From Phoronis ovalis (taxonomy: Eukaryota; Phoronida; Phoronidae): a stretch of 21,128 bases of DNA. Location of the stretch: positions 4,996-26,123 of the forward strand of contig JAOXYB010052278.1 in NCBI GenBank assembly GCA_028565635.1, in the 5' to 3' direction. The position numbers and the translations under genes were made by a program. Of this stretch, positions 1,186 through 19,305 are shown piece by piece. Below the pieces are notes generated by a model, which was not told the origin of the DNA, searched no databases, and worked only from the letters and a program-made list of their open reading frames with translations. Each line of letters begins with the position of its first letter. Within the stretch, counting starts at the first letter, position 1.

Positions 1186-4100
1186 CTGATCAACTGCCAG
1201 GAAGGAGAGTAAACAGAACTGTGTATATACAATATCAGTCCAATTGGAATATTTATACAACACAATCACTTTGACAAATGTGCGAGCTTCTGTCCTCTTG
1301 ACAGCTAGGATTAATATAAATTCACCAACCACTATCCTGAGAAAAATAGTCTACTGTTCAGCACGCATATAAACTTAGTAATCTGCGTAGCATGGTTCTG
1401 TGTGATTCAAGTTTATTCATAAAAACTGCACTTTCAGGTGGTTTTTCTAGTTCATGCACAAAAGTGTTTAGGATAATTATAAATTTTGCTCATCATTCGA
1501 TTGTTACCCAGTTTTAATTTTCCTACAATCACCTTTTTATTCTTTCTTTGTCTTTTTGGGAAAAGGTATCTTCTCTTTCACTCTGAAAAAAATAAATATC
1601 AAACTTTAAAATGCTCCTGCTTTTCCGCTTCACAATTTTATGTTGTATATACAATTAGTGCGCACCTGTTTGTTAGTTTTAACCTTGCAAGCACTTTGTG
1701 TTATTCTGTACCAAACTTCCACAAATTCTGACTCGACTGCATTTCCCTCCCAACTGGAATATCAATATATGTTACAAGTACACTTTGAGAATTGGATTAG
1801 AATTACGAGAAAATTGTGCAAAAGGACAAAAATTGGGTCTGAGACATTCGAGTATATAGCGATGCCCAAGTACTACTTGTATCAAAACATGGCAAAAAAA
1901 TAAATCTATTACAGGTAACATAGACCAAGCTACTGAATTGTTTCAACCAGAGTTTTATATTTTAGTTGAAGTTTAAACTTTAAATATTAAAGTAATCCCT
2001 GGTAACTTACTGATTCCAGACTTGTCTGACCTGTGTCATTGCCATGCAGACATACTGATCAATGACTGCTTGGTTTGTTTCGTATACTTTAGGTAATGTA
2101 AAGGCTGCAGTTACAGCTGTAACAAATACAAATACACGTACAATTACACAATGTACTAAAACCACAAATACACAAGGTACTGAAACAAAAAAATACACAA
2201 TGACAATATCTGTACTGTTAACATGCTGCTGCTCATGCTCATACGGACATCAGCGATTTTCAAATAGCTTCAGAATGTCTGTGTGTAAAACTGAGGATTA
2301 CACTAAGGAATACTAGGTAAGTTTTCCTTACCACCAGCAACGTGCAATCTTATCAGATTTCTGCAATATTTAGGATATGAGAAACTCTGAGAGTAAATAC
2401 AAGTTCCAACAATAGCCACATTGTAATTTACTTACCAAGGATAACAAGAGTCAATCCATTAAACCAGGCACCAATATATGTAAGGACCCACAACAGGAGA
2501 CCAAACTGTAATAACAATGTTAATAATAAGAATTTTTTAATTTATACTAAATATAGTTCATCCCACAAATCTGTCACAGTCACCTGCACTTACAGCTAAT
2601 ACAGAAGGCTCACTTTTTCATTTTTGCCGCATAGCAATAAATTTTACAAAATTACTTGTTTCACACGACAAAGAAAATACAATCTTACTTACCCCATTTT
2701 ACAAAGCAAAATTATGTTTTACGAAAAACAAAGGTATCAGTTTGTTATCTCGTTTAACGAAGTGTGTTTGCCTCACCTTTATAGAATCTACTAAATCTTT
2801 GACTAAGAAGAGATCTCTAAGATGAACCAGAGCTGGGTTGATTTTCTTCAGAGCGGTATCAAGTGAATCATGCACTTTTTGTTCCGGAAGGGTGACCTCC
2901 ATATCCAAGAATTGTCTACAAGTAAATCAACATGTGTTAACATAGTTACTGGAAATCAGCTCGATAAAACTATCCAAACTTTTTTTTTTCAAACACAAGC
3001 ACTGCTATTGCGGAGCGATCCTTGACAGCAAGCCTGCGAAATTATTCATATCCATTTGACGACATTCGACATACAACTTCACATGATATGACAAAAGTTG
3101 GATGTGTCAGTTCTAATTAGCTCATGCAAATTGTTTTTTCCACTCTAAAATATTTTCTTATTAAACCGGATATTTTATTGGCACACTTTCTTTTCCCTAT
3201 ACGAGAGATCCAAGAATTGGGAATCAAGCTGATATTTTAATCTCAGCACCTACAAAATACATTTAATAATTTTTCCATTAAAATGGAATGGATATAGGCA
3301 GCAGGTTATGAGACTACAGATAGAAACCACTTGATCACCCACAGAATCAGACTTACTTGAAGGGATCTCCATCACCAGTTTTCTGTACAGCATTGAGGAC
3401 ATTCTTGTAAACTTTGAAGCTAAAAGTAACTGTTAGGGCAGCGAGAGAAAAGTAAGACACAACGCTGATAAATGAAAAGAATGCCAGCGAAAGAAGAACA
3501 AACATGAGGCTGCCAAACACGACACCCGTCTTCTTCACATCACGCCAGTAAACCAATTCCACCACTGAAATTAAAACAAAATACCATGAAGCAATCACAT
3601 CTCTTACTGTACACACTAAATTTCTTTAACAGCCACTGGCAAGCATTGCAAACCTATTTTATGACAAATTGTCATAAACATCTCTTATTTGGTTTCTCAA
3701 AACACAGAAATATAGACTTAAGATAAAAATGTCACTTAGAGTGATTTTTTTAAAAATTTAGCCAGTCATGATTGTCACATAAAAAATAGCACATATGACC
3801 TCAGACAGTGATTACAATATTATAGAATAACATAGAAGTGCAACTCAGTTCAAGATTATTGCAGTAAGGCGGTTAATCATCTGTTTCCTTTCATTTGCTG
3901 AAAAACAAAAATTATGTCACGCACAGAGATACAAAGAACCCATACTGTTTGTTCTACATTTTCACATATAATACAAAATACATTGTGCAAAGAATACTGC
4001 TTAGGCACAAAGATATTAAAATACATCAAAGATACAATGAAAGTTAGCAGATATAGTACAATGTACATGTTACATTTCATATGCAACATGCAGTGATGAC

Positions 4101-7100
4101 TAGTAAAAGTTACATCAACTGAGGTAATGGTATAGGCACATGCACTGCCATCAAAACCAGGTTAGCTAAAGCGTTGTACATACATAAATGCTATTGCCCC
4201 TATAAACGAAGCAATATTTCAAATGCTTTGCATGCCGGTGGGATAAATTCAAAATCTGAAGCGCATAGTCTATAAGAGTTCTGTCACAAACTACATACAG
4301 TAATGCACAGCAAGTTGTCAAAAGTAGCTTTATTCTTAGGATTTGCACAAGCATGGAGAACATTTAAGACAAAATACTCAAATAAGAGAGTGTTCAAAGT
4401 GCTTATGACAAGAAAAAGCACAATTAAACAAAACAGACAAAGAAACTATCATCATTGAAACTGACCACACAACAGACGAGAGTAAAAAATTGTAGTAACA
4501 AACTATACTGTACCACTAGAGTCGGTCACTGCAGGCATAAAATTAAAACATTGCAGATTTATAAAAAATGTTTTAGTCAAATCTTAACTCAAAATAAAAA
4601 CAGGTAAGTACATGTACAAACAGTTGCTTTAAACATCTTTTATCTATTCAGCATTCCCTACATACGACAAAAAAAATGCACATTCATTTTGACAATACTT
4701 CTAAGAACAGTCAACTTGACAACAGTTAGTAAATCTTGCTAAAGCCACACCAAAATGATAAGTTATTTAACTGTCAAAAGCCCTAAAACCGAGTAGGTCA
4801 GACTTTTTTTTTCAACAAAATTAATTTTTTTTTAAAAACCAAGGTTTAAAAAAAATATTTTCAAATGCCATAATTTAAAGTGGGTGTGCCTGTTAAACAT
4901 GGGTTTTCTTTGGTTATCGCCTAATGGATAAGTTGTTACTTTTTAAAAATTAGTTCTCTGCCTTATGTTTGGTTATAAATGTTTAGGTTATATGTAGATA
5001 CAATACAATAAGCTTAATACTAATTAACGACCTAAGCAAACAAATAACAATTCCCAGCCAGATTAAGGGTTTAAATTAATGTTGAAATAGCAGATGATGT
5101 TTTAAGCTAACTTAGTATGAAATGTACCAAGTACTAAGACATAACCAACTAACGGCCTCTGATAGAATGTACCCATTTACTCTGATTTCAGCCATTTTCC
5201 AATAACACCTACAACATCGGAATATCAGTACACTCGTTTGTACTATCAGAACAAGGGTTTCTACTATAAAAACAAGGGTTGAACTGATTAAACATACGAC
5301 TCTGTTCTGTGAAATATTTTAATTGGTCCACATTTTTTTAGGAATAAGCTTTTTCAACATATGAATAACAGTTAATTAAAATGAGACCATATCATTCTCA
5401 AGGAACATTCCTATCAAGCCACAATCTAATTAGAAGCCTGTAGTTATGAAGCCTCTTATGACTGATCATACAGTTAGATCATACATTAGAAGCCTGTAGT
5501 TATGAAGCCTCTTATGACTGATCATACAGTTTACTTGACCTGAAATGATCTGGTTATGTACAACTAAATCATCAATATGAGAATTATCTTCAGTTATTCA
5601 GGATCAATAGTTCTGTAATACAAATTTTCTCAAGAGACTAATGCACTAAGAACTGAAGAGCATTGGTTAGATGAAACGGAACCAGAAAATAGGACAAGAA
5701 ATCACTATGGTGCACAAGAAGCGCCACTCCTTTGACACACCTAGAATTTTGTTTTAAAATATGTCCATATCAAATCTGTCACTGCCACAGAACATTAGGT
5801 ATATAACTGAAACAGCAGCTCCAAGTTTTACATGCTCAAACTATAATTGTTATCAGTGTACTAACAGAGTGCATGACTGAAGCCCTACAAGACTGAAGCC
5901 ATACAAGTAATCTTCATCATTCAATAATAAGAATATTAAAGTTTATAGATGACTGTATACAAATATGTAATACTGCTAAAGTGCTCTAAATAAAAAAAAA
6001 ATTGATACAAGCAGACCATGTGTAAAGGAATACATGACTAACAAATCAAACAAATGTATAATTATAGTTTACATTAGATTAATATGCTGTTTGCAGGATG
6101 AAACTTAAACCTCAAACAGACTCAACTGATTATCCAATTTAAAGGATTTGAGTCGCCTGAATGCAGATTGGAATTCTTCAAAGCTGATTAGAAAAGCTGA
6201 TTTGAAATGTCACATGGATTGAGATTTATGGGGAGTTCATTTAGCTGTAGAACAAAGTATACACAGTACTGCAAATGTGAAGACACACACTAGTGCCTCT
6301 TTGACACATGAACAGAGACTTGCTTAAATGATTTAAAAGTCACTTTAGTTTGTAAAAAGGATTATCCTAACAAAATACTACAGTAGTTTATTTTACCATT
6401 TAATGAATTAAGGTTAAAATCTGAGTGCCAGGCACTTGATATTAACATTAATATTTTATGAAACTGTCTGCAAACAACTCCAGTTCTATATGACTGATAG
6501 CTTGATTTGACTACCTTTTGTAATTGTATTATAGACAACAGTTTGCTACATATTACTTGATCTGTTACTTAGCAACAAAATCAATGGGAAATGTAACATG
6601 TAACTGTTGTCAAAAGCCAGTGAAATGGAAATTGTAACTTTTCTATGCTGAATTACGAATCATTACCTACCAGATAGAATGTTGCAATTTGTAAGTGATT
6701 TATTTCTTACATTTCTGCTAGCCTAATATAGAGATTGTTCCCTCGCTGCTATGCAAGTCTTGGTTACCCACTGTACCTGTCAGCTCTTATAGCTGTTGGT
6801 ATACAGGTTTAACTGCATTTATTAAAAAATGGAAACTAAAACCCCCGAAGATAATCAGAGAACGACAAGCAGTTCCCCACCAAGAAGGCAATTTTGGTTG
6901 AAAAATATATTTGCAAATCTTACATAATATGATCACTTTAGCCTACATATTTATGTAGGTTCATCTCTGGTCCAGCTATAAGACCTGGAAGATAATTTGT
7001 AATACCCTGTGGATAAGGATAAAAGCTGACATAAGCTCATATAAGGTTGTAAATATATTAACTGTCATGCTCCAAGTAATAAAAAGGCTAAACACTCTAT

Positions 7101-10100
7101 TAACCTACTGGGAAAAGCTCTCAAATTAACAAAAGAACTAAACAAATTAAGAAAATAATATATAAACTACTGTACTAGGGACTGGGATTTAACCTTGTCA
7201 AGCTGGTATGTCTATGTTCTACCAAATATAAACACTTTGCAATATAATGTACCACTTCCAGTATTAATTACAGAAATTCAGTAAGGGACTATTCCATAAT
7301 CAAATACATCCAATAATCATTACCTGTGACAGTTATAGAACTATCAATAAAGAGCTGGAAGCTTGACTTCGTTATAACAGGATCAAGTCAATAAATTCCA
7401 GTTACAGTTAGTAAACTGCAGCATTCACATTGCTCTTATGATAACATCCAATCCCTTTATTGATCTTTAATGTTAATATACAAATCATAACTAGAAAGCA
7501 TTTTGGAAATTACATACAAATGTGATAAATGCATATCGATCTACGAACAGTAGGAAGATTTAGTTATAAATACTGCAGACTATAAATATTAATTCTATAT
7601 TTTTAGTATGAACTTAGGGTTGCACCAGTCTTTCTTTCTTTCAAAACCATGACTATGTGAGTGGGGTATATAGTTTCAACAAATCTGTCCATGAATGTGT
7701 GACTGCACCCCATCCCAGTTCATGCCTGCAGGTTTTTCCTATGTAACACTGGAAGGATATTCGTATATACAACAAACTGACTGACTGAATGTTATACATT
7801 CTACACCTGCAAATCAAATAATTACGGCACCTGTTCGGTAGAATATGCATATAGCTAGATGACACAGCAAAGCAAATACAGCCATTCTTACTATTCACGA
7901 CAGTTTATGAATGAATCATCGCACCACTACCTGTGCGCTCGCGTAACTCATTGATAAAAGCATGGAATGGGTTTGTTTTGCTACACCATCTAGTATGTAC
8001 ATGCAAATTTATTGCATGTCAGTACAAAGTGGAAATAAGACAGGAAACAAAGAGCAAGCAAGCAGGCAGGAAAACATAAGATACAATGAGAACTAGAAAT
8101 CATTAGTAAGCCAATCTCCCAGTGTATGAACTCTTACCGCTCCAACTACAGATCAGACTACTGATCTACTCTTAACAGAATCGTTTTTGAAGAAACGAAG
8201 AGGCAACACTACTTAGCTCCAAATATAACTTGGCGTGCAGTTATTAAATTAACTGGGCAATATTAGCTCAAGAGTTCAGATACCAGCAAGTAAGTTCGTC
8301 TCAATCCTAGCGAATGTGAATTGTTTCAAGAAAACATACCTCGTGGGTCTACACTCTTCAACCAAGAGTTTAAAGCGTGATCACCTAGAGAAGCCAGAAA
8401 TACAAACAAAGGCAACATTTGTTACTATGCTCAATATCAAATCATACAGCACTACAAAGCAATTAGCGATTTCCACAAACTGTAGTAAAATGGGACACAG
8501 TTCATCAAGGACAATTTCGAACGGACAAATTACATTAAATTTCCCTTGTAACAGTGCACATAATGTTATTTACAATTTTGAACTATGAATGGATGTACTT
8601 TTATATCTTGGTAAATTTTGAAAACATTTATTTTGTGAGATGTTCTTGGATGCCCTTAGTTAAACTTGTTCTGTTGTTTGCAGAAAAATATTAATGAAAC
8701 CACATTAATGAAAATCTAACCTTGTGCATCATCTTTCATTTTCTGCCAGGAACTAATAATGTACAAGTAAAATTCTCTTTCTCATTTTGTCAAATTATGG
8801 CTCATTTTGATTGTGGAAATCACTGGTAGTATAATGTAAAGATTGTTAGGATAACTCATATTGTGCATTTTGTAAAATGTATATTGAACAAAATCATATT
8901 ATCAGCTTTGGGTACAGTATAAACATTAAATTATATTATCAGCTTTGGGTATGTACATTAAGTTCAAAATGTATGTTGAATTTAGAGACTAAAATAAACA
9001 AGGGGTGTTGAGTTTAGTGGCTTTAACTAGATAAATTGACAAGAAATTGGTTTGTATAAAATATAAAAAGATTGAATATTAAATATATTCTCTTAGCATT
9101 ACTTTACAAGGTGAATCATAAGAAAACAATTAACACATAATTGGCTCTTTGACAAGTGAATCATTCATATATTACCTTTGGCTGAACATATAGTCTAGAC
9201 CTATCATATGTATAGAGGCATGAGGGCAAAGGTCAATTTTGAATATCACATGGAAATTGCATGAGACTTTGGTCAGTTAAGGTTCGGCTCGTGGCAACAT
9301 TTGAAATGTGTCATTTCCAAATTTAAAGGTACAACTTGTTCACCAATCAGAAATAATGCATTTATATAGCACATTTGATGAATTGGGATTCCCTAAGGGT
9401 TACAGAGGATTTATTATGTTGAATGAGCAATAACTTGACATTATAGTAATGCTGCACAGGTATTATAGGGCATTGGGATAATAAAGTAGAGCCATAAATT
9501 AAATTAGCATATACTGCATCCACATGCTAAATGTATAAGTAATGTGGGGCATTCAAACAAGTGACTCCATTCTCAAAAGTCACCATATGCTGTTCAGTGA
9601 TCAGCCATATAAAAAATTGGTACACACTGTTATTGCAAAGAAAACAAGTTTTGTTCACGTCACCTTTGAATTGAATTAAATTGAATGGACATGCCACTTA
9701 CTAAAGTAATACAAATTTTAAAGACAGTTGCAAAGTTAGAAGACCAGAAATTGTCAAGAAAATTTGCAGCTTTCTACATTAATAAGCTTTGTTTCATTAA
9801 AGTACATGCACGATGCCTGTGATAATTAGAAATCAATCGCCAAGACAATAGCATAATGTTTTACATGCAAACACAGACGTACCTGCGAGAGCTATTGGAG
9901 CGGCGGGTTTGGAAGTGACTTCTTCCCGACTTGTGGTTCGTGGAGGAGTGGCGGGTGGGGTTGGTTCTGAGGGATACGCCTCAGGCAAAGTAGTGCTAGA
10001 TGGTTCAGCAGCCAATATTTCTTTCTTGGGATCTGTGTCTCCAAAGTTGATCAAAGGCTGCTGGACTGCTTCTGCTTCGGATGAGCCTCCAGCTGTGTAC

Positions 10101-10213
10101 AGGTCTTCCTCTGCCTGATCTGTGCTGTCTGCGAACGTTGAAGTTGGAGTAACATGTTCAAAGCCGTTATCTTCTGGATAGGAGCTTGGGTCGACTAGTT
10201 TATCATCATCCAT
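1161..10213 (-). CDS. RTN: Reticulon (reticulon homology domain protein), complete split gene
   Basis: Reticulons are ER-membrane proteins whose two long hydrophobic hairpins bend the bilayer and shape tubules. Joined exons (minus) are 10213-9883, 3564-3357, 2915-2777, 2505-2436, 2116-2011 and, tentatively, 1185-1161, giving about 292 residues (285 if the last intron is retained). Residues 1-110 are acidic and Pro/Ser/Thr-rich. The reticulon homology domain starts at about residue 111 with [18 protein letters not shown], the family signature. Hydrophobic stretches lie at about 124-163 and 228-256, separated by a hydrophilic loop ending in [12 protein letters not shown]. All junctions are GT..AG and phases agree. 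The start is supported by an in-frame stop 15 bases upstream (10229-10231) and a good context (A at -3, G at +4). The gene is divergent from SPTLC2, with start codons 132 bp apart. The family call is secure; RTN1/3/4 orthology cannot be assigned. Only the C-terminal exon is doubtful. Confidence 0.95.
1186..2010 (-). other. Reticulon last intron or extended 3' UTR
   Basis: This 825-nt stretch is an intron in the spliced form, or 3' UTR if exon 5 is terminal. It has two minus-strand AATAAA hexamers and a pyrimidine-rich double acceptor near 1186-1200. Plus-strand open frames here are short, AT-driven and unsupported. Confidence 0.5.
1536..1541 (-). terminator. Candidate intronic polyadenylation signal of reticulon
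   Basis: Minus-strand AATAAA occurs here and again at 1412-1417, between exon 5 and the tentative last exon. It would serve the form that stops at the TAA inside the exon-5 donor. For a longer form, only an ATTAAA at 763-768 was seen. Confidence 0.3.
2011..2116 (-). CDS. RTN: Reticulon exon 5: end of second hairpin and C-terminal tail
   Basis: This exon has 106 nt, with acceptor ttgttacag|CTGTAACTG. It encodes [20 protein letters not shown] then [16 protein letters not shown], matching the family pattern F.VP..YE..Q..ID.Y. The probable donor AATCA|gtaagt contains an in-frame stop: unspliced reading gives WNQ followed by TAA at 2009-2007. The exon can therefore be internal (spliced to 1185) or terminal (intron retained). 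Minus-strand AATAAA signals at 1541-1536 and 1417-1412 would serve the retained form. Confidence 0.88.
2436..2505 (-). CDS. RTN: Reticulon exon 4: second hydrophobic hairpin
   Basis: This 70-nt exon lies between acceptor ttattacag|TTTGG and donor CCTTG|gtaagt. It encodes [20 protein letters not shown] followed by VIL. This aligns with the family's second hydrophobic segment, in which TY.GA.FNGLTL is invariant-looking. It enters in phase 0 and leaves in phase 1. It is too short to appear as a long open frame and was found by extending the homology domain. Confidence 0.93.
2777..2915 (-). CDS. RTN: Reticulon exon 3: hydrophilic loop of the homology domain
   Basis: This exon has 139 nt, between acceptor cttgtag|ACAAT and donor AAAG|gtgagg, and encodes residues about 180-226. 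This is the 66-residue-type loop between the hydrophobic hairpins. It contains [20 protein letters not shown] and ends [16 protein letters not shown], close to the vertebrate LRRLFLVDDLVDSLK. Exit is in phase 0. Confidence 0.95.
3357..3564 (-). CDS. RTN: Reticulon exon 2: first hydrophobic hairpin of the homology domain
   Basis: This exon has 208 nt, between acceptor tttcag|TGGT and donor TCAA|gtaagt. It enters in phase 1 (G from exon 1 plus TG gives Val) and leaves in phase 2. It encodes [20 protein letters not shown], a hydrophobic run of about 40 residues (too long for a simple span, as expected for a reticulon wedge), and the start of the loop with KTGDGDPFK, matching vertebrate HPFR at the same boundary. 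An open frame continues upstream into the intron but lacks an ATG, so I do not use it. Confidence 0.95.
5430..5531 (+). repeat. 56-bp-period direct repeat, two copies of 46 bp
   Basis: The 46-bp block at 5430-5475 (starting TTAGAAGCCTGTAGTTATGA) recurs exactly at 5486-5531 after a 10-bp spacer. It lies in the long reticulon intron and looks like a recent local duplication. Confidence 0.93.
5875..5906 (+). repeat. 16-bp tandem repeat, two copies
   Basis: GACTGAAGCC[C/A]TACAA occurs twice in direct tandem with one difference, in the long reticulon intron. Confidence 0.85.
8896..8951 (+). repeat. 37-bp-period direct repeat
   Basis: ATATTATCAGCTTTGGGTA occurs at 8896 and again at 8933, with AT-rich sequence between. 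It lies in the long reticulon intron. Confidence 0.85.
9883..10213 (-). CDS. RTN: Reticulon exon 1: start codon and acidic N-terminal region
   Basis: This exon has 331 nt (110 codons plus one base), ending at GCAG|gtacgt. It encodes a low-complexity, probably disordered cytosolic region: MDDDKLVD at the start, the tract [13 protein letters not shown] near residues 83-95, and [12 protein letters not shown] around residues 51-62. The PLINFG element resembles the PLMDFG stretch that I recall in the N-terminus of vertebrate RTN4; that match is from memory. GFEHV at about 17-21, preceded by PED, fits a loose LC3-interacting (LIR) pattern. Reading past the donor adds only a short meaningless tail, so the splice is preferred. 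Confidence 0.9.
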
Positions 10214-10388: not shown

Positions 10389-13300
10389 GTAATGGCACAG
10401 ATACACAATGTTTGTAAAAACAACTGTTTTTGTAAATTAATCTATCAATTTAAAGTTAATCATATTTCTAAATGAATTATTTAGGCAGTTTTATGCTATG
10501 TTAAATTATAAAATTTTTTTTTAAAATAATTTATTTTTACAGAAACTTATCCGTATAATGTATTTTGTATTAAACCATAACATTTCTGAAATAGGCGATA
10601 TGGCGTCTGGAGATCCTCGAACGGGGCGGGGAAGCACACAAAAATTAAATGGGTTTTTTAACAATGGAATCGGAGATGGAATACGTAAAATTAGGAAAGA
10701 GGTATGTAATAACTGACTGTAGGCTAAATAAATTCAAGTTATTGGGAAATATTACAAGAAATTCAGTGAACATGGGAGCTGCTATTTTTAACCAAGTTGA
10801 CTGCAGCCGGTCAACATGTGATGATGACAACGGCACTTAACTCCCGCCACAACATTAAACAATTGATTAGGCTAATAGTCTGGGATAATGATAAAACAAT
10901 TATATTGTTTTTTTATGATGCAGTAATTTGTAAACTTTTTGTAGCTTTGGCTGCGATTGTAAATCGTTTACAAATTTTTATACAGACTAATACACGTTTG
11001 TCAAATCTTGAGGTCAAATAATTATATATATCAGGTCAAATCCATTCGTAGTATTAAATGATGTCGAGTGTATTTATGTGGTATATTGTAAGAATGATTT
11101 CACTAAGTGTAGTGGCCTGAAGCAATATCTTCAAGAACAATTAATGTACAGACGCCTTACCATAGCATCCTGGCATAGCACTACATACCACAGGGGGCTG
11201 GTGCTCAAAAAAATATAAAACGAATAAAACATATGAAATGAATGAAATAAATATATTTCCACTTCTGTCATTCACACTTATTACCAAATTGTCAAAAATC
11301 CTGCAAAAATGTATGAGTTTGTTGTTGAATATTGCGTATGTCTGTTGAGGTACGTGGATGGAAACATTTTTTTACGCTAGTTTAAGGTGTTAAAGAGATG
11401 TTCTGGTTAGTTTCTTGTGGGTACTTGCACTGATTGGTAAAAATATAATTTTTTTTAAAATTCAACCATGAAATTTTCAATTATCGTGTCACCCCTTGAT
11501 ACTATTATATATAGTACGAGCCGCCTCGGACCCAGGAGCTATATTGATAATTTCTATGAGTTTTTTTGAGATTTTTGCGGAGTTTTTGACCATTTGGTGA
11601 TAAGTGTGAATGACAGAAGCGGAAATATATTTATTTTTTATTCGTTTTATATTTTTTGGGGGCACCAGCCCATGTGCTACTTACTAGCTACTTGTTAACG
11701 TAAACTTTAATATAATAATTAAAACTCCTGGATGTTACAGACCTCTGAACAGGATATGATACATATATTTCCTCCTGGATACATGAATGCTGTAGCAGTC
11801 GGTAGCCTGGCATAGTGTCTTGTGTCTTGCTACATGTATCTTACATAGTCTGATGTTTATATTTAAAACAGTCGCGGGTCTTTGGTATTTCTTCACAAAT
11901 GTAGTTTCTAAACACAAAAATGATCAAACGCTTTGAGATAACAAAAACCTATGACCCTGCAGTTGACTTTAATATTAACCTTGAACTCCCTGGTCCCTGG
12001 ATGTTCCAGACTTTGAGCAGGACAAGATACAGCTAGTCCCTCCCGTATATACGTGGCTCTGCTATGGCAGCCTACGGCCTACTGTAGGGTCATGCAATTG
12101 GATAGTAGGGTCATGAAGCTATCTAAGAGTAATATGCAGGAGCTGTGATTGCAGTATTGTATTACATAGTTGTTATGGAGGCCATTTAAATATAGCGTTT
12201 TATTCCCTTTTACTTATACACTCACTGTAGCAACTGATTTCACATTGCTCTGTTTTGTGAAAATGATTAACATTTAACCATGTCTATTTCAGACTTCTTG
12301 GCAGGAGGACTTCGAAGAGTCATTTGAAGAAACTCCATTACTGATCGCCATTATTACTTATATAGGCTATGGTATTCTGGTACTTTTCGGATTTATTAGA
12401 GATTTTACGAGAAACCATGGTTTTGAAAAAATACACAAAGCGGAACCAAAAATTGAGGTAACATTTTATGTTATGGACTTGTTAATGCTTTCATTTTCTG
12501 AAAGGGATAATAATAATAAAACGGTAAACTGCTGTGTGACACAGTACGCTACTATCACGCTTGATAGGCCACAAAAAGCACACTATATAACACCCACTAC
12601 CTTTTTGAACGGTTGTGAACATATCGTTGTCAGAGTAGAATTAATCTTTTTTATAAATTCCTAGTTGTTATGGGTTTATACTGATGTGTGTCAGTTAAAC
12701 AAATAACACATCAATGTTGAACACTCAAAAGTTTGCTCTTTGATATCATATGAATCCAGCTTTGACCTCGTTCAAATGCAATTTAAATTGTTGATTTCAC
12801 ATATCGAATTAATCTTTGTATCTTCTTTTTAATATAAATACAGAATTAATTAATGTTTGGTGTAACTGCATGGTCTCCAGTCTTTTGTATTTCTTGAGGA
12901 TCTGAATTGATGAACTATAATTTCCACCCATATATTACAATGTGTACTAAAATATATCTGTTCCCTTTGTCTTTCAGGGGTTCGTTCCTTTGTATCAAAG
13001 TTTTGAAAATTTTTATACGAGAAATTTATACATCAGAATTCGTGACAGTTGGAATAGACCTATAGGTAGTGTTCCCGGTGCTGAATTTGAGCTCTTGGAT
13101 AGGAAAACAGACGACTATGGATGGAATTTTGAGTAAGTAGTCTTTACCGTAGTCTTTACCGTAGTCTTTACCGTAGTCTTTACCGTAGTCTTTACCGTAT
13201 TCTAACATTCTTATAGCAACATTGTACTGTTTTTTTTCTTTTTGAGAATATTTAATATAGTGTCCTTGCTGAAGTCCATTTTTGGCTCTGTACATCTCAT

Positions 13301-16300
13301 ACCATAAGCGATAATAATTGTATTGTAGCCTGTCTGCTGGCTTAATTATATAAGGATTTAATGTATTGCTAGGTGACAGTTTTACTCTTGTTTCTTCATT
13401 TATAACAGTGCTATCAGTAAATTAATCATTTTTAGCAATGAAAAATAGAATTTTATGAACTCAGAATTATAGAACTAATTACATTTCTGACTAAATATAA
13501 GTTACATTGTGGAAAAAAATGTAACTTATCATTACTTTAGGTAATTTAAGTAAAAACATAGTTTACAATGATACAAACTGAGTTCAGCCTAAAAAAATTG
13601 ATATAAGAACATAGACAACAATCTACTGTGAAGTAAGTTAATTTCGAAAATATATTAACAGGTCTTATTTTTAACAGCACTCAAATGAAAAGCTACTGGG
13701 AATTCCATTTTCTTTTTAGATTTACTGGAACCAGAACGAAAGCACTGAATTTTGGATCGTATAATTATCTAGGTTTCGCAGAGAACAAAGGTCCTTGTGC
13801 AGATGCTTCGGAGAAAGCTACAAAAGAATATGGAGTTGGTGTGTGTAGTACTAGAAAAGAATTAGGTAGGCGCAGCAACAGGGATTCCATGCTCAGCTTG
13901 CATTGATTGAAACACAATTTTCGCAGTTGTATTATTTTTTCAGTAGACACTATATTAGAAAATGTTGTGTGCTTTGATGTCTACGTATTGTTTTTAATAA
14001 AACATAGCCTGCTATTCCAAAGTTTGTCTAGTACAAAAACCCATCAATAACAAATTCATTATTTTTAATAAAAGGTACGGAAAATATGCTCCAGCTATCC
14101 TGACCCAACTTGAGGTCCTGTTGTTTACATGTTGTGAAGGCTTTATTTTAAAAAGATTAGATAGTGGTAATTAATCTGTCAGGTTTAGAAGCAGGTTATC
14201 ATTTGCTGATATTAAAACTATCACAGCACTTCTCATTGTAAACAGAAGACTTGGCTCAAATTGCTTGACATCAACTTTCTTTGTACAAAAACAGTTGTAT
14301 TTATATTTTTCAAAGAACTGAAGACAGCAAATCATTCATAAAGATTGCTAATGAGTGTGATAATGTCAAAACCTCAAGAAGCTTAGAAATTTAAATTGTA
14401 CCTTACAAAAATGGAAAAAAATTATCACAGACATGCAGTCATTTTGTCTTCGTTTTAGAATTAGTTTATGCAACAGATTTTTGTTCGCTCTATGTTCAGG
14501 TCGACATATTGATTAATTTAACAATATTTTAATTGTCTTGTTTTTCTTTAATTTTGAAATTTCACTTGTAGGTTCGTTAGCAATTCACAAGGAGTTAGAA
14601 GAATTGGTGGCTAAATTCTTAGGAGTTGAAGATTCTATTGCCTTTGGAATGGGTTTTGCTACCAACTCTATGAATATGCCCACCTTAATGGGGAAGGTAC
14701 GTATGACTATTTAGATGCCAGAAATATGAATCTTGCTAGGATTTCTGCTGAAGTTTAATACCATATTGCTCAGCAAACAACTGCATGCCTGACATAAGCA
14801 AGTTATTGCCTTTTTGAACAGCGCATTGTATTTACATATTTTGGCATGCTGATAATTTCTTGCTGATACCTACATATCATGAAATATTATTAACATTATG
14901 TAGCAAGAATATTTATAACCTAATCTTTAACTGTTTTCTGGGCAATATAGTAGTAAATTGTTGCTGCTTAGAACTTAGGGCTGTTCCAGAAAATAAGATA
15001 TATTTCACTAGGTTGGCACTGTTTTTATACCCCAGCTAGTCTTCTGCATCGTGATTTTTTAATAGTAGAAAAGAAAATTATTGACACGTATGTAATTTGT
15101 CTGGAACATCCCTTATAATTATCAACACAAGCATCATTATTTTACTTTTCAATAGATAATGTGTGAAAGTGTAGAAGTGCGGGATGAGGGAGGATGTTAT
15201 GCTGGTAACATAATCTAATTAGCTGTCTTTGTGAGCGTTTTATGCTGCATATTATAGATAATTTGTGTGCACCTTTCTTAAACCTCGGAGCACAAACAAT
15301 ACATCAATGGTAAAAATAAATGTTGTTTTGATGACATCTCGATTTAGTACAATGTTTGTGAAAAATGAATTTAGTCTGAATCTAAATCAGTCTTTGACCA
15401 AGAAATAGCTTCCATTGTTCCTGCTGAATATATTCTGAATAGAAGTGAAAAATATGTTTTGCTTAAAATAGGGTCTGTTTTAAGATTAAATTTGCTATTA
15501 ATAGTATAATTTAAATTGTTTTCAAAGAAATTACATGTACCTTCATAAAAACCAGTAACCTTCCAGGGAGAACAATCGTTTTTGTGATCAAGTAATAAAG
15601 GTGATCAAATAATATTTTTGTAGGGTTGTTTAATAGTTAGTGATGAACTGAACCATGCATCGCTAGTTTTAGGAGCCAGATTGTCCGGGGCTTCAATTAA
15701 AGTCTACAAACATAACAGTAAGTACTTCTGCTATCACTCATATCTTGTTAATAATTTTACCTGTCACCTAGAATATTTCCATTAGTACTTATCATTATTA
15801 TGATTTCCTCTGATTAAAAAAATTATCAAGTAGTTATGTGCTGTGTTAAAGAGGCTGTATCCGTCAGTGCGTTGTGCGTGTGTAAAGATCCCGCTCATTT
15901 GCATATATTCATCTAAAACCCAATCTCCTGGTTTATTGGTATCTGGTAGCATCTACTGAAACAGCTGCAGATTGACCCTCCATCATAAATAATAAAAGTA
16001 CAGGGGGTGTAAAAAGTTGACTCTCTATCTTTCAATTACTACAGATTTCTGTGAAACGCAATCCTAACTACTCAGTGAATATAAACCACACCCTAATTAA
16101 CATTTTACCTTGTTTGTAGATATGAAAAGTTTAGAAAAAATCTTATCTGATGCCGTTGTATACGGTCAACCAAGGACGCACAGACCTTATAAAAAAATAC
16201 TCATCGTTGTCGAGGGCATTTACAGGTAACTATGGATTATGTTAAACTCAGTATGTCACAGTATCGAAACTGGATATGACTTCCAACCAAAAGTTTAAAC

Positions 16301-19300
16301 ATTTTAATCCAACTTTCATTGAAATCAATTCAGTGCTTCTCGAGGTATCAAGAATGTATTTTTGTGCTCTCTTTTATGTAAAAAGAAAGTTGATGGCAGC
16401 CTGATTTGGTGCAATCAGTGTTTCTTGCTATATAATGTGTAGTTTCGTTAGTCTGAGTATATTGTAAAGCAGAAGCATGCAAAAAATTGTTGAAGCTGGA
16501 TAGTTAGTGACTGAGTGAAAAGAACCGATGGAAAAACAATGTGTCTCCCAACTTTGTTACTAATGTGTGTATACATAGAAGACTGTATACATTCTGTAGT
16601 TGATACTGCAAAATTAAAGTAGAACCAACTTGCCGTATTTTGAAACCATTGCAATCTATTTCTTTTTATTTACTATATGAGACATATGCACGAATCTTTA
16701 AAACTCATGAAAAGCTAGTTATATGTAAGTGTGAAATATTCATCTTTTTAATGCAAAAATACTTTTTATATATTGTAATTAATTTGTTCAAAAATTTTGA
16801 TTGGATAGCTTTTACGTTGACATATATATGAAAGGGTCGACATTATAGCAAATACTAAAATGTTTGTCATGTTAAGTTCCATACCCTGTAATTCTTCTAC
16901 ACAAACTTGCTTAAATCTTACAGCATGGAAGGCTCAATAGTTAGACTGCCTGAAGTTGTTCGCTTAAAGAAGAAATATAAAGCGTATTTATACTTGGATG
17001 AAGCTCACAGTATCGGTGCATTAGGACCCACGGGAAGAGGTGTCGTGGAATATTTCGGTTGTGACCCTAAAGATATTGACATCATGATGGGCACTTTTAC
17101 AAAAAGTTTTGGCTCTGCTGGTGGTTACATTGGTGGTTCGAGAGTATGTTTTCAATCGTGATTTTTATAATATACGCCATACAACGAGGACTTCTATGTG
17201 TTGCATTCCACAACAATGGTCAAAACTGCAACCAGTCTTCCATTTCACTGGCTGTTTAGCTTTAATGCCGTTCTTCCGTGTAGGTGTTTTGTGCATGGCA
17301 GTTGGAACTAGGAGTCCTAAGACTTTATAGTGATTTCGCTTTTTTGATAAGCATGCATCGAGATACCTAAACAAATATTATTAGGTGGTCCTTAGGGAGA
17401 AAATAGAGACAAAACAAACATCATGTTGTGTTTGTCTTAAGGCATGTAATTTTATTTTTCACTGAAGAAAGGTGTAATTTGTATCCAAATCTGTGTCGGT
17501 GACACATAGAATCTTCTTGAAATATAAACTTACGTTGTAAAAATGGTACTTAAAAAATTGTCTTTCTTCTAGGAATTAATCAACCATTTGCGCCTTAATT
17601 CTCATAGTACGTGTTATGCAACGTCCATGTCGCCACCCGTGGTTCAACAAATCATCACCACCATGAAGATTATCATGGGAGAAGACGGAACAAAAGAAGG
17701 TCAGAAAAGAATTGCTCAGCTTGCAAAGAATAGTCGGTACTTTAGAGAAAAACTTCGCGAAAGTGGTTTTACAATATATGGTAACAGAGATTCTCCTGTT
17801 GTTCCTCTGTTAATATATATGCCGGCACGAGTCAGGTATGCATTTGGAAATTTTGGTTGATTATGGTGTGCATTCTAATGCTTGGAAGCATTGCTTTTGC
17901 AGGTCAAAGAAGAATTGCTCAACTTGCTTGGAATGCCCGATATTTTAGGGAAAAGCTGCATGAGCACGGGTTTATTATATATGGAAACAAGGATTCCCCT
18001 GTCGTGCCTATGTTGCTTTTTATGCCAGCTAAAATCAGGTATGCGGCTTCATGTACGAAGAGATGCTACTGCTGATTTGAAATATCTGTTGCCAAATCTG
18101 ATTTGTTTTTGTTGGGATGCATTGCTACCTCTCTTGTTTGCTACTACTTGTAAATGTAAGAGTCGTTTTAATAGGGTGTTTTCCTTTTGCCAGTGTGTGT
18201 GTCCCAAGTTAGTGTTTGAGCTGGAGATGCATAAACCAATGCATATTGGAGATCACGTGGTCCACATCTTGAAATTATTTTTACTAAGAAAGTTACTGTA
18301 ACATAGTAATATAGTGTTCAAGCTTTTTCTTTCATGACACCCAAACTTGCACAGTCACTCACTAATCTACTACCCATCAACTCGTGCAGTTGCTCATTTA
18401 ATAATTCACCATCAACTCAGTAACTTACTCGTGTTTCGACTCATTTACTACTTGTGTTTATGTATTCACCAAAGTGTTCAGTGATACAGGAATAAATTCT
18501 TGTTTCTTTTTGTTAAAACAAGTTCTACAAAATCTTCCAAATATTTTATGTAGCTACTGTTTGTATTATTAGTAACCACATTTGCTGTGTTTGTTTACTG
18601 TTTGAAGTCTTCTTTCAAAGCTATAGGAATGTTCATGGTTTACTTTGTAGTGCTTTTAGTCGGGAGACACTAAAACGCGGACTAGGCGCAGTTGTAGTTG
18701 GTTTTCCTGCCACTCCAATCATTGAATCTCGAGCAAGGTTTTGTCTGTCAGCAGCGCATACTAAAGAAATGCTGGATCAAGTAAGTTGAGAAATATGTAG
18801 ATTATTGCGTATAATCCTTGTATTATGTATTGAAATGTGATTTTTGTGTAATTTATAGCTATTTGTGAGGTTAATTATCTGTAAATCCAAGACACTAGTC
18901 GCATCATCACCCCTTTTCTCGGTACAGAGGATACAAGGCTGGGAGACGCACTCGTGTGATCCCTAAAAAAGAATTGAGGCCTGACATCTGGTGGTAATCA
19001 TATTAGCATTGTATCGCCAATAGATGATTTGTCATTTTAATCAAACAAAGGCTTGGCATTATTTGGTATAAATAAACTATTTGAACTGCTCTATTATATG
19101 GCTGACAATTGCTCAAACACTGTTAAATGTTGTCCATATCTTCAGGCAATGTGTAATATCACTGAATTAGTTTAAAACTGTACAATGCTGTCGTATCTTT
19201 TTATAGGCACTGGAAATCATTAATGAAGTAGGCGATATGGTGAGGATCAAATATTCCAAACATAAAATATGCAAGAAGTTAAAAGACGGCAAAAAGGATC

Positions 19301-19305
19301 AATGA
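10346..19305 (+). CDS. SPTLC2: Serine palmitoyltransferase, long-chain base subunit 2 type, complete split gene
   Basis: This is the catalytic PLP-dependent subunit of serine palmitoyltransferase. With SPTLC1 it condenses L-serine and acyl-CoA to 3-ketosphinganine at the ER membrane, the committed step of sphingolipid synthesis. Exons are 10346-10388, 10595-10701, 12293-12457, 12978-13132, 13720-13865, 14572-14696, 15624-15717, 16120-16225, 16924-17143, 17573-17835 (or 17573-17699 plus 17903-18038), 18651-18780 and 19207-19305: 550 residues against about 562 in human. All junctions are GT..AG with consistent phases. An N-terminal membrane segment (about residues 66-82) precedes an alpha-oxoamine synthase fold. 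ELNHASL carries a PLP-stacking His (258), LDEAHS the cofactor Asp (339), and GTFTKSFG the Schiff-base Lys (374). [10 protein letters not shown] is intact. SPTLC3 is a vertebrate-type paralog, so SPTLC2/3 ancestry is equally possible. The first exon and start are least sure: Met at 10600 gives 534 residues. Confidence 0.97.
10595..10701 (+). CDS. SPTLC2: SPTLC2 exon 2, with alternative start at 10600
   Basis: From the ATG at 10600 (G at -3 and +4) it encodes [20 protein letters not shown] and continues to IRKIRKE, ending at donor GAG|gtatgt in phase 0, which matches exon 3. The Gly/Asn-rich low-complexity composition is typical of the poorly conserved SPTLC2 N-terminus. An in-frame ATG also occurs at 10558. 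The exon is supported by position, frame and donor rather than by homology. Confidence 0.75.
11192..11674. mobile_element. MITE-like element with long terminal inverted repeats
   Basis: The arm at about 11192-11310 is repeated in inverted form at about 11571-11674. Both begin with GGGCTGGTGC near the outer edge, and share the blocks ATATAAAACGAATAAAA, AAATATATTTCC, and CTTCTGTCATTCACACTTAT on the inner side. The left arm has about 16 extra bases. The roughly 260-bp centre has no open frame of note, so it would be a non-autonomous element. No convincing target-site duplication is visible. It lies in SPTLC2 intron 2 (10702-12292). Confidence 0.75.
11702..12085 (+). repeat. Diverged direct repeat, about 115 bp, copies 262 bp apart
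   Basis: The copies at about 11702-11815 and 11964-12082 share, in the same order, ACTTTAATAT, CTGGATGTT.CAGAC, GA.CAGGA..GATACA, and a stretch around TGCTGTAGCAG or TGCTATGGCAG followed by CCT. They are clearly related but diverged, perhaps two copies of an old repeat family just downstream of the inverted-repeat element. Confidence 0.5.
12293..12457 (+). CDS. SPTLC2: SPTLC2 exon 3: conserved FEETP motif and membrane segment
   Basis: This 165-nt exon is in phase 0 at both ends (ctatttcag|ACT, GAG|gtaaca). It encodes [20 protein letters not shown] and then [15 protein letters not shown]. Human SPTLC2 has [32 protein letters not shown] here. The hydrophobic run LLIAII...LVLFGF is the N-terminal membrane-associated helix. 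Confidence 0.96.
12978..13132 (+). CDS. SPTLC2: SPTLC2 exon 4
   Basis: This 155-nt exon lies between ctttcag|GGG and TTTGA|gtaagt, phase 0 in and phase 2 out. It encodes [20 protein letters not shown] followed by [18 protein letters not shown], aligning with human [35 protein letters not shown] 12-bp minisatellite begins five bases past the donor. Confidence 0.97.
13138..13197 (+). repeat. 12-bp minisatellite, five copies, beside a splice donor
   Basis: GTAGTCTTTACC is repeated five times without change, starting five bases after the exon-4 donor GA|gtaagt (13132/13133). The perfect copies point to recent expansion. On the minus strand it reads as a KDYG peptide repeat, which I regard as chance. 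Confidence 0.95.
13497..13529 (+). repeat. Intronic hairpin with perfect 12-bp stem
   Basis: ATAAGTTACATT and AATGTAACTTAT are perfect inverted complements around a 9-nt loop, in the intron between SPTLC2 exons 4 and 5. The stem is too short for a typical miRNA precursor. No role can be given. Confidence 0.7.
13720..13865 (+). CDS. SPTLC2: SPTLC2 exon 5
   Basis: This 146-nt exon lies between tctttttag|ATTTAC and GAATTAG|gtaggc, phase 2 in and phase 1 out. It encodes [20 protein letters not shown], then EEYGxGVCSTR-type sequence ([15 protein letters not shown]). [11 protein letters not shown] and GVCSTR are core alpha-oxoamine synthase motifs of the SPTLC2 class. Confidence 0.97.
14572..14696 (+). 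CDS. SPTLC2: SPTLC2 exon 6
   Basis: This 125-nt exon lies between cacttgtag|GTTCG and GGGAAG|gtacgt, phase 1 in and phase 0 out. It encodes [20 protein letters not shown] and then [22 protein letters not shown]. Human has [17 protein letters not shown] at this place. It includes the glycine-rich turn near the cofactor phosphate. Confidence 0.97.
15624..15717 (+). CDS. SPTLC2: SPTLC2 exon 7, carrying the PLP-stacking histidine
   Basis: This 94-nt exon lies between tttttgtag|GGTTG and CATAACA|gtaagt, phase 0 in and phase 1 out. It encodes [20 protein letters not shown] followed by [11 protein letters not shown]. The His of DELNHASL (residue 258) stacks on the PLP ring in this enzyme family. 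Confidence 0.96.
16120..16225 (+). CDS. SPTLC2: SPTLC2 exon 8
   Basis: This 106-nt exon lies between tgtttgtag|ATATG and TACAG|gtaact, phase 1 in and phase 2 out. It encodes [20 protein letters not shown] and then [16 protein letters not shown]. It aligns residue by residue with human [36 protein letters not shown]. Confidence 0.97.
16924..17143 (+). CDS. SPTLC2: SPTLC2 exon 9: catalytic core with PLP lysine
   Basis: This 220-nt exon lies between cttacag|CATGG and TCGAGA|gtatgt, phase 2 in and phase 0 out. It holds [20 protein letters not shown] (cofactor Asp339 and conserved His342) and [18 protein letters not shown] with the Schiff-base Lys374. Positions equivalent to human V359 and G382, both altered in HSAN1, keep the normal residue. 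This is the best conserved exon in the window. Confidence 0.98.
17573..17835 (+). CDS. SPTLC2: SPTLC2 exon 10 with alternative version A
   Basis: This 263-nt exon lies between tcttctag|GAATTA and GTCAG|gtatgc, phase 0 in and phase 2 out. The common part (17573-17699) encodes [20 protein letters not shown], then [23 protein letters not shown]. Version A (17700-17835) encodes [20 protein letters not shown] and then [24 protein letters not shown]. An internal AAG|GTCAGA at 17699/17700 can act as a donor to join version B at 17903 in the same phase. If unspliced at its end, the frame stops at 17858-17860. Confidence 0.95.
17700..18038 (+). repeat. Tandem duplication of a 136-nt coding segment
   Basis: The units are 17700-17835 and 17903-18038, separated by 67 nt. 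By hand alignment I count 39 mismatches in 136 and no gaps. Similarity covers the flanking AG before each unit and the gtatgc after each, so both splice-site contexts were duplicated with the coding part. Confidence 0.93.
17903..18038 (+). CDS. SPTLC2: SPTLC2 alternative exon 10 version B (tandem duplicate)
   Basis: This 136-nt exon has its own acceptor (attgcttttgcag) and donor AATCAG|gtatgc, phase 1 in and phase 2 out. It encodes [20 protein letters not shown] and then [24 protein letters not shown]. It is identical in length and phase to 17700-17835 and about 71% identical in DNA, with many third-position changes, so both copies look selected as protein. Human SPTLC2 at this place (QQLAENTRYF, GFIIYGNEDSPVVP, MPAKI) shares features with each. 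It is not a pseudogene: no stop, no indel, intact splice sites. Confidence 0.9.
18039..18650 (+). other. SPTLC2 intron after the duplicated exon
   Basis: This 612-nt intron, like 18781-19206 after exon 11, shows no further copy of the duplicated 136-nt segment and no other coding exon. The array therefore has exactly two members. Confidence 0.75.
18651..18780 (+). CDS. SPTLC2: SPTLC2 exon 11
   Basis: This 130-nt exon lies between actttgtag|TGCTTT and GATCAA|gtaagt, phase 2 in and phase 0 out. It encodes [20 protein letters not shown], then [47 protein letters not shown] matches human almost exactly, including the residue equivalent to human I504. Confidence 0.98.
19207..19305 (+). CDS. SPTLC2: SPTLC2 terminal exon with stop codon
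   Basis: The acceptor is tttttatag|GCACTG. The exon encodes [20 protein letters not shown] and then [12 protein letters not shown], with TGA at 19303-19305. It aligns with human ALKEIDEVGDLLQLKYSRH. The tail is shorter than in human and basic rather than ending in the acidic vertebrate segment. Confidence 0.97.
   Translation, partial: ALEIINEVGDMVRIKYSKHKICKKLKDGKKDQ

Follow-up and report, generated by a model that had tools for sequence, protein, structure and literature searches.

An SPTLC2 gene of Phoronis ovalis with two conserved tandem exon copies, probably used one at a time through an internal donor and a cassette exon

SPT performs the first, rate-limiting step in sphingolipid synthesis (PMC4326654). 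In Phoronis ovalis, the gene for its catalytic subunit SPTLC2 contains two neighbouring coding segments of similar sequence, here called copies A and B. An initial annotation of this locus interpreted them as a mutually exclusive exon pair, through which one gene would make two SPTLC2 proteins differing at 12 residues. This raises the question whether both copies serve as protein-coding sequence, and how splicing could choose between them. We address it in the window, i.e. the whole stretch of 21,128 nt that was analysed, and in the genome assembly from which it comes.

The complete coding region of SPTLC2 lies on the + strand of the window, in segments that run from 10600 to 19305 (Table 1). 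Human SPTLC2 is the best of 54 matches to the spliced protein of 534 residues (E 6.4e-243, residues 37-525), and since it resembles solved SPTLC2 over almost the whole length and shares the TFTKSFG motif, the gene is identified as SPTLC2. We take the lysine of this motif to be the PLP-binding residue. The segment numbered exon 10 in the initial annotation is the ninth coding segment in the present count, the segment itself being the same. A second SPTLC2-like gene was not found in the 77.4-Mb assembly; apart from this locus, the protein matches only contig C2104, three times and weakly (32-47% identity). Animals carry eight TCP-1 genes plus HSP60, whereas matches to the TCP-1 family were confined to 6 contigs here, and the assembly is therefore probably incomplete. 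One of these matches, on contig C679 (16833-18455), is an uninterrupted Cpn60 match of 541 codons, while the other TCP-1 matches are split; it could represent an intronless HSP60 or a foreign contig. COX1, encoded on a mitochondrial contig of 15.7 kb, shows 90% identity to that of Phoronopsis harmeri, ahead of an unnamed record (87%) and molluscs (85-86%), which for this contig makes a phoronid other than P. harmeri the likely source.

Table 1. Coding segments and splicing features of the SPTLC2 gene (positions in the window)
Feature	Positions	Strand	Remark
Coding segment 1	10600..10701	+	Start ATG at 10600
Coding segment 2	12293..12457	+	
Coding segment 3	12978..13132	+	
Coding segment 4	13720..13865	+	
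Coding segment 5	14572..14696	+	
Coding segment 6	15624..15717	+	
Coding segment 7	16120..16225	+	
Coding segment 8	16924..17143	+	With TFTKSFG motif
Segment 9, common part	17573..17699	+	In both forms; phase 1 at end
Proposed internal donor	17700..17705	+	AAG/GTCAGA; required by form B
Copy A	17700..17835	+	3' half of the 263-nt exon 17573-17835, without own acceptor; apparently the derived version
Form A donor	17836..17841	+	GTATGC
Spacer	17836..17902	+	67 nt, ending in acceptor TTTTGCAG
Copy B	17903..18038	+	Cassette exon, apparently the family-like version; donor GTATGC at 18039
Coding segment 11	18651..18780	+	In-frame partner of either copy
Coding segment 12	19207..19305	+	With stop

Other features of the window lie outside these segments. 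On the - strand, reticulon-domain exons (Pfam PF02453) are located at 2702-3565, with 3356-3565 scoring above the Pfam cut-off and 2702-2926 just below it. An open frame at 9836-10213 on the same strand matched no family, and its assignment as first exon of the reticulon gene is a guess. A tandem array with a 12-nt unit (13137-13203, 5.6 copies, 98% match) starts within the donor of segment 3, four bases past the exon end, and two more short arrays are present at 33-113 and 5442-5531 (units of 31 nt and ~30 nt).

Copies A and B are each 136 nt long, begin in phase 1, end in phase 2 and share 71% of their DNA sequence and 32/44 residues. The coordinates, equal lengths, phases, GTATGC donor context and protein identity of ~73% given by the initial annotation are all correct. 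A repeat search independently recovered a 144-nt pair (17698-17841 and 17901-18044, 73%), so that the similarity starts two bases ahead of each copy and takes in the GTATGC donor. The copies match at 97/136 positions, compared with a mean of 36.4 (sd 5.2) for placements on the + strand outside A; elsewhere, the highest counts are 58 matches on the + strand and 60 on the - strand, and the likeness is thus far beyond chance. Open 44-codon windows in a given frame are found in 241 of 3,704 cases in four introns of the same gene. Within the 77.4-Mb assembly, the arrangement occurs once. In lying side by side, in being homologous and in agreeing in length and phase, the two copies fit mutually exclusive exons derived from tandem duplication.

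The reading frame restricts how the copies can be combined. Joined to A or to B, the common part reads in frame through segment 11 and gives a full SPTLC2 of 534 residues, in agreement with the initial annotation. When both copies are included, a stop follows 15 codons beyond the end of A; with neither copy, it follows 7 codons after the common part; and when the spacer is retained, it lies 8 codons beyond A. One copy at a time is the sole productive outcome among the joins tested.

The two copies are not equivalent at their borders. Copy B has an ordinary acceptor (TTTTGCAG), whereas A simply continues the common exon: the sequence upstream of it is purine-rich coding sequence with 2/18 pyrimidines, compared with 10-16 for the gene's 11 acceptors, that of B included. 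A classic symmetric pair, in which both copies would be exons bounded by an acceptor and a donor of their own, is ruled out by this missing acceptor. The mutually exclusive pair of the initial annotation thus survives in that each intact frame holds one copy, and fails as a textbook pair. Since A is not a separate exon and lacks an acceptor, the choice must go through the internal donor at 17700.

We propose, with a probability of about 0.77, that the gene produces two alternative SPTLC2 proteins by 5'-splice-site choice combined with a cassette exon, rather than through a symmetric exon pair. An old tandem duplication of an ancestral SPTLC2 exon (136 nt, phase 1 to phase 2) would have given rise to the two copies, and strong selection would have preserved each of them as an alternative version of residues 414-458. 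In form A, the long exon 17573-17835 would be joined to 18651 and B skipped. In form B, the exon would be cut at 17699, the 203-nt stretch 17700-17902, which holds A, would be removed as an intron, and B would then be joined to 18651. Joining A to B would be hindered or wasted, with predicted branch points 25 and 43 nt from the A donor and a product that stops early. At the sequence level, the initial claim of two proteins differing at 12 residues is well supported by the constraint on both copies, the frame logic and the short spacer. That donor 17700 is used, that exclusion is steric, that the choice is regulated and that the two proteins differ in function are inferences.

Donor 17700 itself is usable on paper and somewhat atypical. 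It matches the consensus at 6/9 positions (5-8 of 9 for the gene's 11 other donors), and its predicted U1 duplex of -5.4 kcal/mol falls within their range of -4.6 to -9.1, although it is weaker than 10 of the 11. It carries C at +3, where all 11 other donors have A. Among 94 other coding GTs, three match the consensus as well, and seven pair with U1 as well or better. This donor sequence can fairly be read as a weak, regulated site, and may also be a disused one.

The 67-nt spacer is unusual for this genome. Estimates for 38 other introns, obtained from myosin and TCP-1 matches, start at 113 nt, and the other introns of the SPTLC2 gene measure 402-1591 nt; an intron of 67 nt would be an exception among them. 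These lengths are estimates, derived from 60 of 103 match rows judged consecutive by eye, with 38 pairs kept at profile gaps of -25 to +10; short introns inside one match are missed, since the matches read through stops. The shortest left-out pair spotted (contig C1601, one row with five stops) would give ~124 nt. Flies splice many introns of ~60 nt. Branch points are predicted in the spacer at +25 (TTGAT) and +43 (CTAAT) from the A donor, and A-to-B splicing looks sterically hindered because of these short distances within a 67-nt spacer. A distance of ~50 nt between branch point and donor has been proposed as the steric limit in vertebrates (PMC7969005). With predicted branch points and a limit taken from vertebrate splicing, steric exclusion at the spacer may be put forward by analogy. 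Exclusion by RNA pairing was rejected: the longest perfect docking/selector pairings between the three introns tested (7, 9 and 8 nt) are much as in shuffled sequences (means 7.7, 9.2 and 7.4), and the spacer RNA fold is no better than shuffles (z 0.41).

Myosin heavy-chain genes are a known site of exclusive exon clusters. In the same assembly, a myosin heavy-chain gene on contig C3048 shows repeated exon matches (~2483-3172, 4928-5591 and 14380-16800), in which profile positions ~89-119 and 121-152 occur twice and 561-602 three times. These are possibly exclusive-exon clusters, with approximate exon ends and a copy near 16678 that is not open. We count these repeats in favour of exclusive use in SPTLC2.

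Selection on both copies was assessed from their differences. Across 132 nt of whole codons, A and B differ at 39 positions, distributed as 7/9/23 over codon positions 1/2/3. Their dN is ~0.17, whereas dS is saturated (not computable by NG86, ~4 by ML). Neutral simulations (20,000 per starting copy) never ended with 12 or fewer amino-acid changes, and a stop arose in 71-73% of them. With dN low and synonymous sites saturated, both copies have most likely been translated for most of their history. Near-invariant positions, as defined by the 120 homologues listed of 1,939, are kept at 18/20 in A, 20/20 in B and 148/149 in the rest of the protein. That either copy is long dead is ruled out by this constraint on both.

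In terms of identity, all 86 distinct homologous segments compared are nearer to B than to A. The set used here and for the tree comprised 88 distinct rows including A and B, with the Cooperia oncophora gene model (P0001) and rows with ≥ 5 gaps left out. BLAST bit scores against 124 proteins are higher for A in 62 cases, higher for B in 61 and equal in one; where the difference exceeds 5 bits, B is favoured in 34/34. B also scores higher with 25/25 proteins picked as lophotrochozoan, two of them unnamed and 23 named ones that we assume to belong to this group. From these comparisons, B looks like the ancestral, family-like version and A like the derived one. In a tree of the 45-residue segment, A groups weakly with Bugula (0.74), then with B (0.70) and then with Lingula (0.92), and so short a segment cannot date the duplication. 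The Bugula neritina protein (P0114) has the rare K423 and V458 in common with A, while by identity it is nearer to B (34/45) than to A (32/45). The duplication might thus predate the split of the phoronid and bryozoan phyla. When the A segment served as the sole query, four matches were obtained, a chiton protein being the best, and a near-identical protein was not found among the 120 homologues listed of 1,939.

These observations bear on the possibility that only form A is productive and that B is a poison cassette, which shifts the frame after A, triggers mRNA decay and so tunes the SPT level. The layout is compatible with it: the exon that carries A and the A donor is uninterrupted, B is flanked by splice sites of its own on both sides, and inclusion of B after A leads to the stop 15 codons beyond A. 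Constraint on the protein is not required of a poison exon, whereas B retains all 20 near-invariant residues and is the copy nearer by identity to all 86 homologous segments. Moreover, its conserved phase is used only by junction 17699^17903, and the spacer that would have to be spliced is short for this genome. We consider a poison cassette improbable.

About equally improbable is that one copy is a recently disused, undecayed relic and the other constitutive. Copy A looks the faster-changing of the two: it carries I438T and K457R, at positions where 120/120 and 119/120 of the homologues listed have I and K, respectively, and three of its residues are unseen in these 120 homologues, compared with one in B. 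The donor at 17700, on which B depends, is unusual. Against a relic, the low dN and saturated dS imply that any disuse was recent relative to the duplication, and both frames are open, with all expected splice sites present except the A acceptor. The two substitutions in A, the C at +3 and weaker U1 pairing of donor 17700, the vertebrate origin of the steric limit and the restriction to one genome also speak against the reading as two alternative forms. An assembly error that merged two paralogues or haplotypes in one contig is very improbable: fragmentation of the 77.4-Mb assembly into 4,805 contigs speaks for it, but the 29% DNA difference is far too large for haplotypes, nothing else within 17200-18800 is repeated except one 17-nt match, and a single locus was found in the assembly.

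Under the preferred reading as forms A and B, the asymmetric layout requires a history. Human SPTLC2 has 12 exons (PMC4326654), and 12 coding segments are obtained here when an intron between the common part and the copies is counted. In the Cooperia oncophora gene model, the 3' part of SPT is repeated from exactly the boundary between common part and copy, a hint that, in a nematode, an exon begins at this point. This repeat may be genuine, as a partial duplication, or may have arisen as an artefact of draft assembly. The Tupaia gene model contains an insert precisely at the end of segment 8. An intron was probably once present between 17699 and 17700. The simplest history would be that an old exon was duplicated and that the intron before A was subsequently lost, leaving AAG/GT as a usable donor. 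Past the six donor bases, the downstream flanks have 39% ungapped identity over 67 nt and are no longer alignable, for which reason the reverse order of events is also possible.

If the proposal is true, a natural splice switch in the catalytic subunit of SPT would provide two enzyme versions from one gene and would point to C-terminal SPTLC2 residues that matter. The asymmetric layout suggests how an exclusive exon pair may change after intron loss. In human SPT, mutations that shift activity towards alanine are linked to hereditary neuropathy (PMC4326654). The swapped segment corresponds to human SPTLC2 435-479; a functional link through the ceramide-contact residues described for human SPTLC2 (Tyr122, Phe498 and Ile503; PMC10261145) was dropped, as all three lie outside it. 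A more far-reaching idea, which we regard as rather unlikely, is that the only SPT catalytic subunit detected here is tuned by a splice switch instead of gene duplication. A and B would then differ in substrate (serine or alanine, acyl-CoA length) or in the ORMDL/ceramide response, as a counterpart of COQ-2, with a former exclusive exon fused upstream and the old AAG/GT junction acting as a regulated donor.

The initial annotation knew of no description of such an arrangement for SPTLC2, and our literature search of open-licence papers likewise recognised no such exon pair. Alpha-tropomyosin exons belong to the same steric-exclusion class as those of OGDH. Exclusive use of exons duplicated in tandem is well known (PMC9013439, PMC9741552), and SPTLC does not occur in the main text of the latter, which treats human events. 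OGDH exons 4a/4b are likewise tandem exon copies in a metabolic enzyme, in which branch points less than ~50 nt away block joining (PMC7969005); there, each copy is spliced through its own mapped branch points, whereas here A is fused upstream and the branch points are predicted. Duplicated exons are also used alternatively in U2AF1 (exons 3/Ab, PMC5224494) and in vertebrate GNAO (exons 7-8, PMC5896119), where they are separate exons, unlike copy A. The Rogers model of intron gain, in which an AGGT segment is duplicated, resembles the present case in that AG/GT starts both copies (PMC4974935), but its criterion of an unchanged peptide does not hold here, as the copies encode different peptides and either can be read.

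Humans also possess two versions of the catalytic SPT subunit, SPTLC2 and SPTLC3 (PMC10261145), which are encoded by two genes, in contrast to the two exon versions within one gene proposed here. The closest counterpart in a lipid pathway is COQ-2, in which exons 6a/6e of helminths, annelids and molluscs are homologous alternative exons of an invertebrate enzyme, one resembling the universal form and the other being special (PMC7434440). The COQ-2 swap changes the product between rhodoquinone and ubiquinone, as genetically shown in C. elegans (PMC7434440), whereas for SPTLC2 a change of function is hypothetical. If both forms of SPTLC2 are made, sphingolipid synthesis would stand next to COQ-2 among the lipid pathways in which a choice between exon copies acts as a switch.
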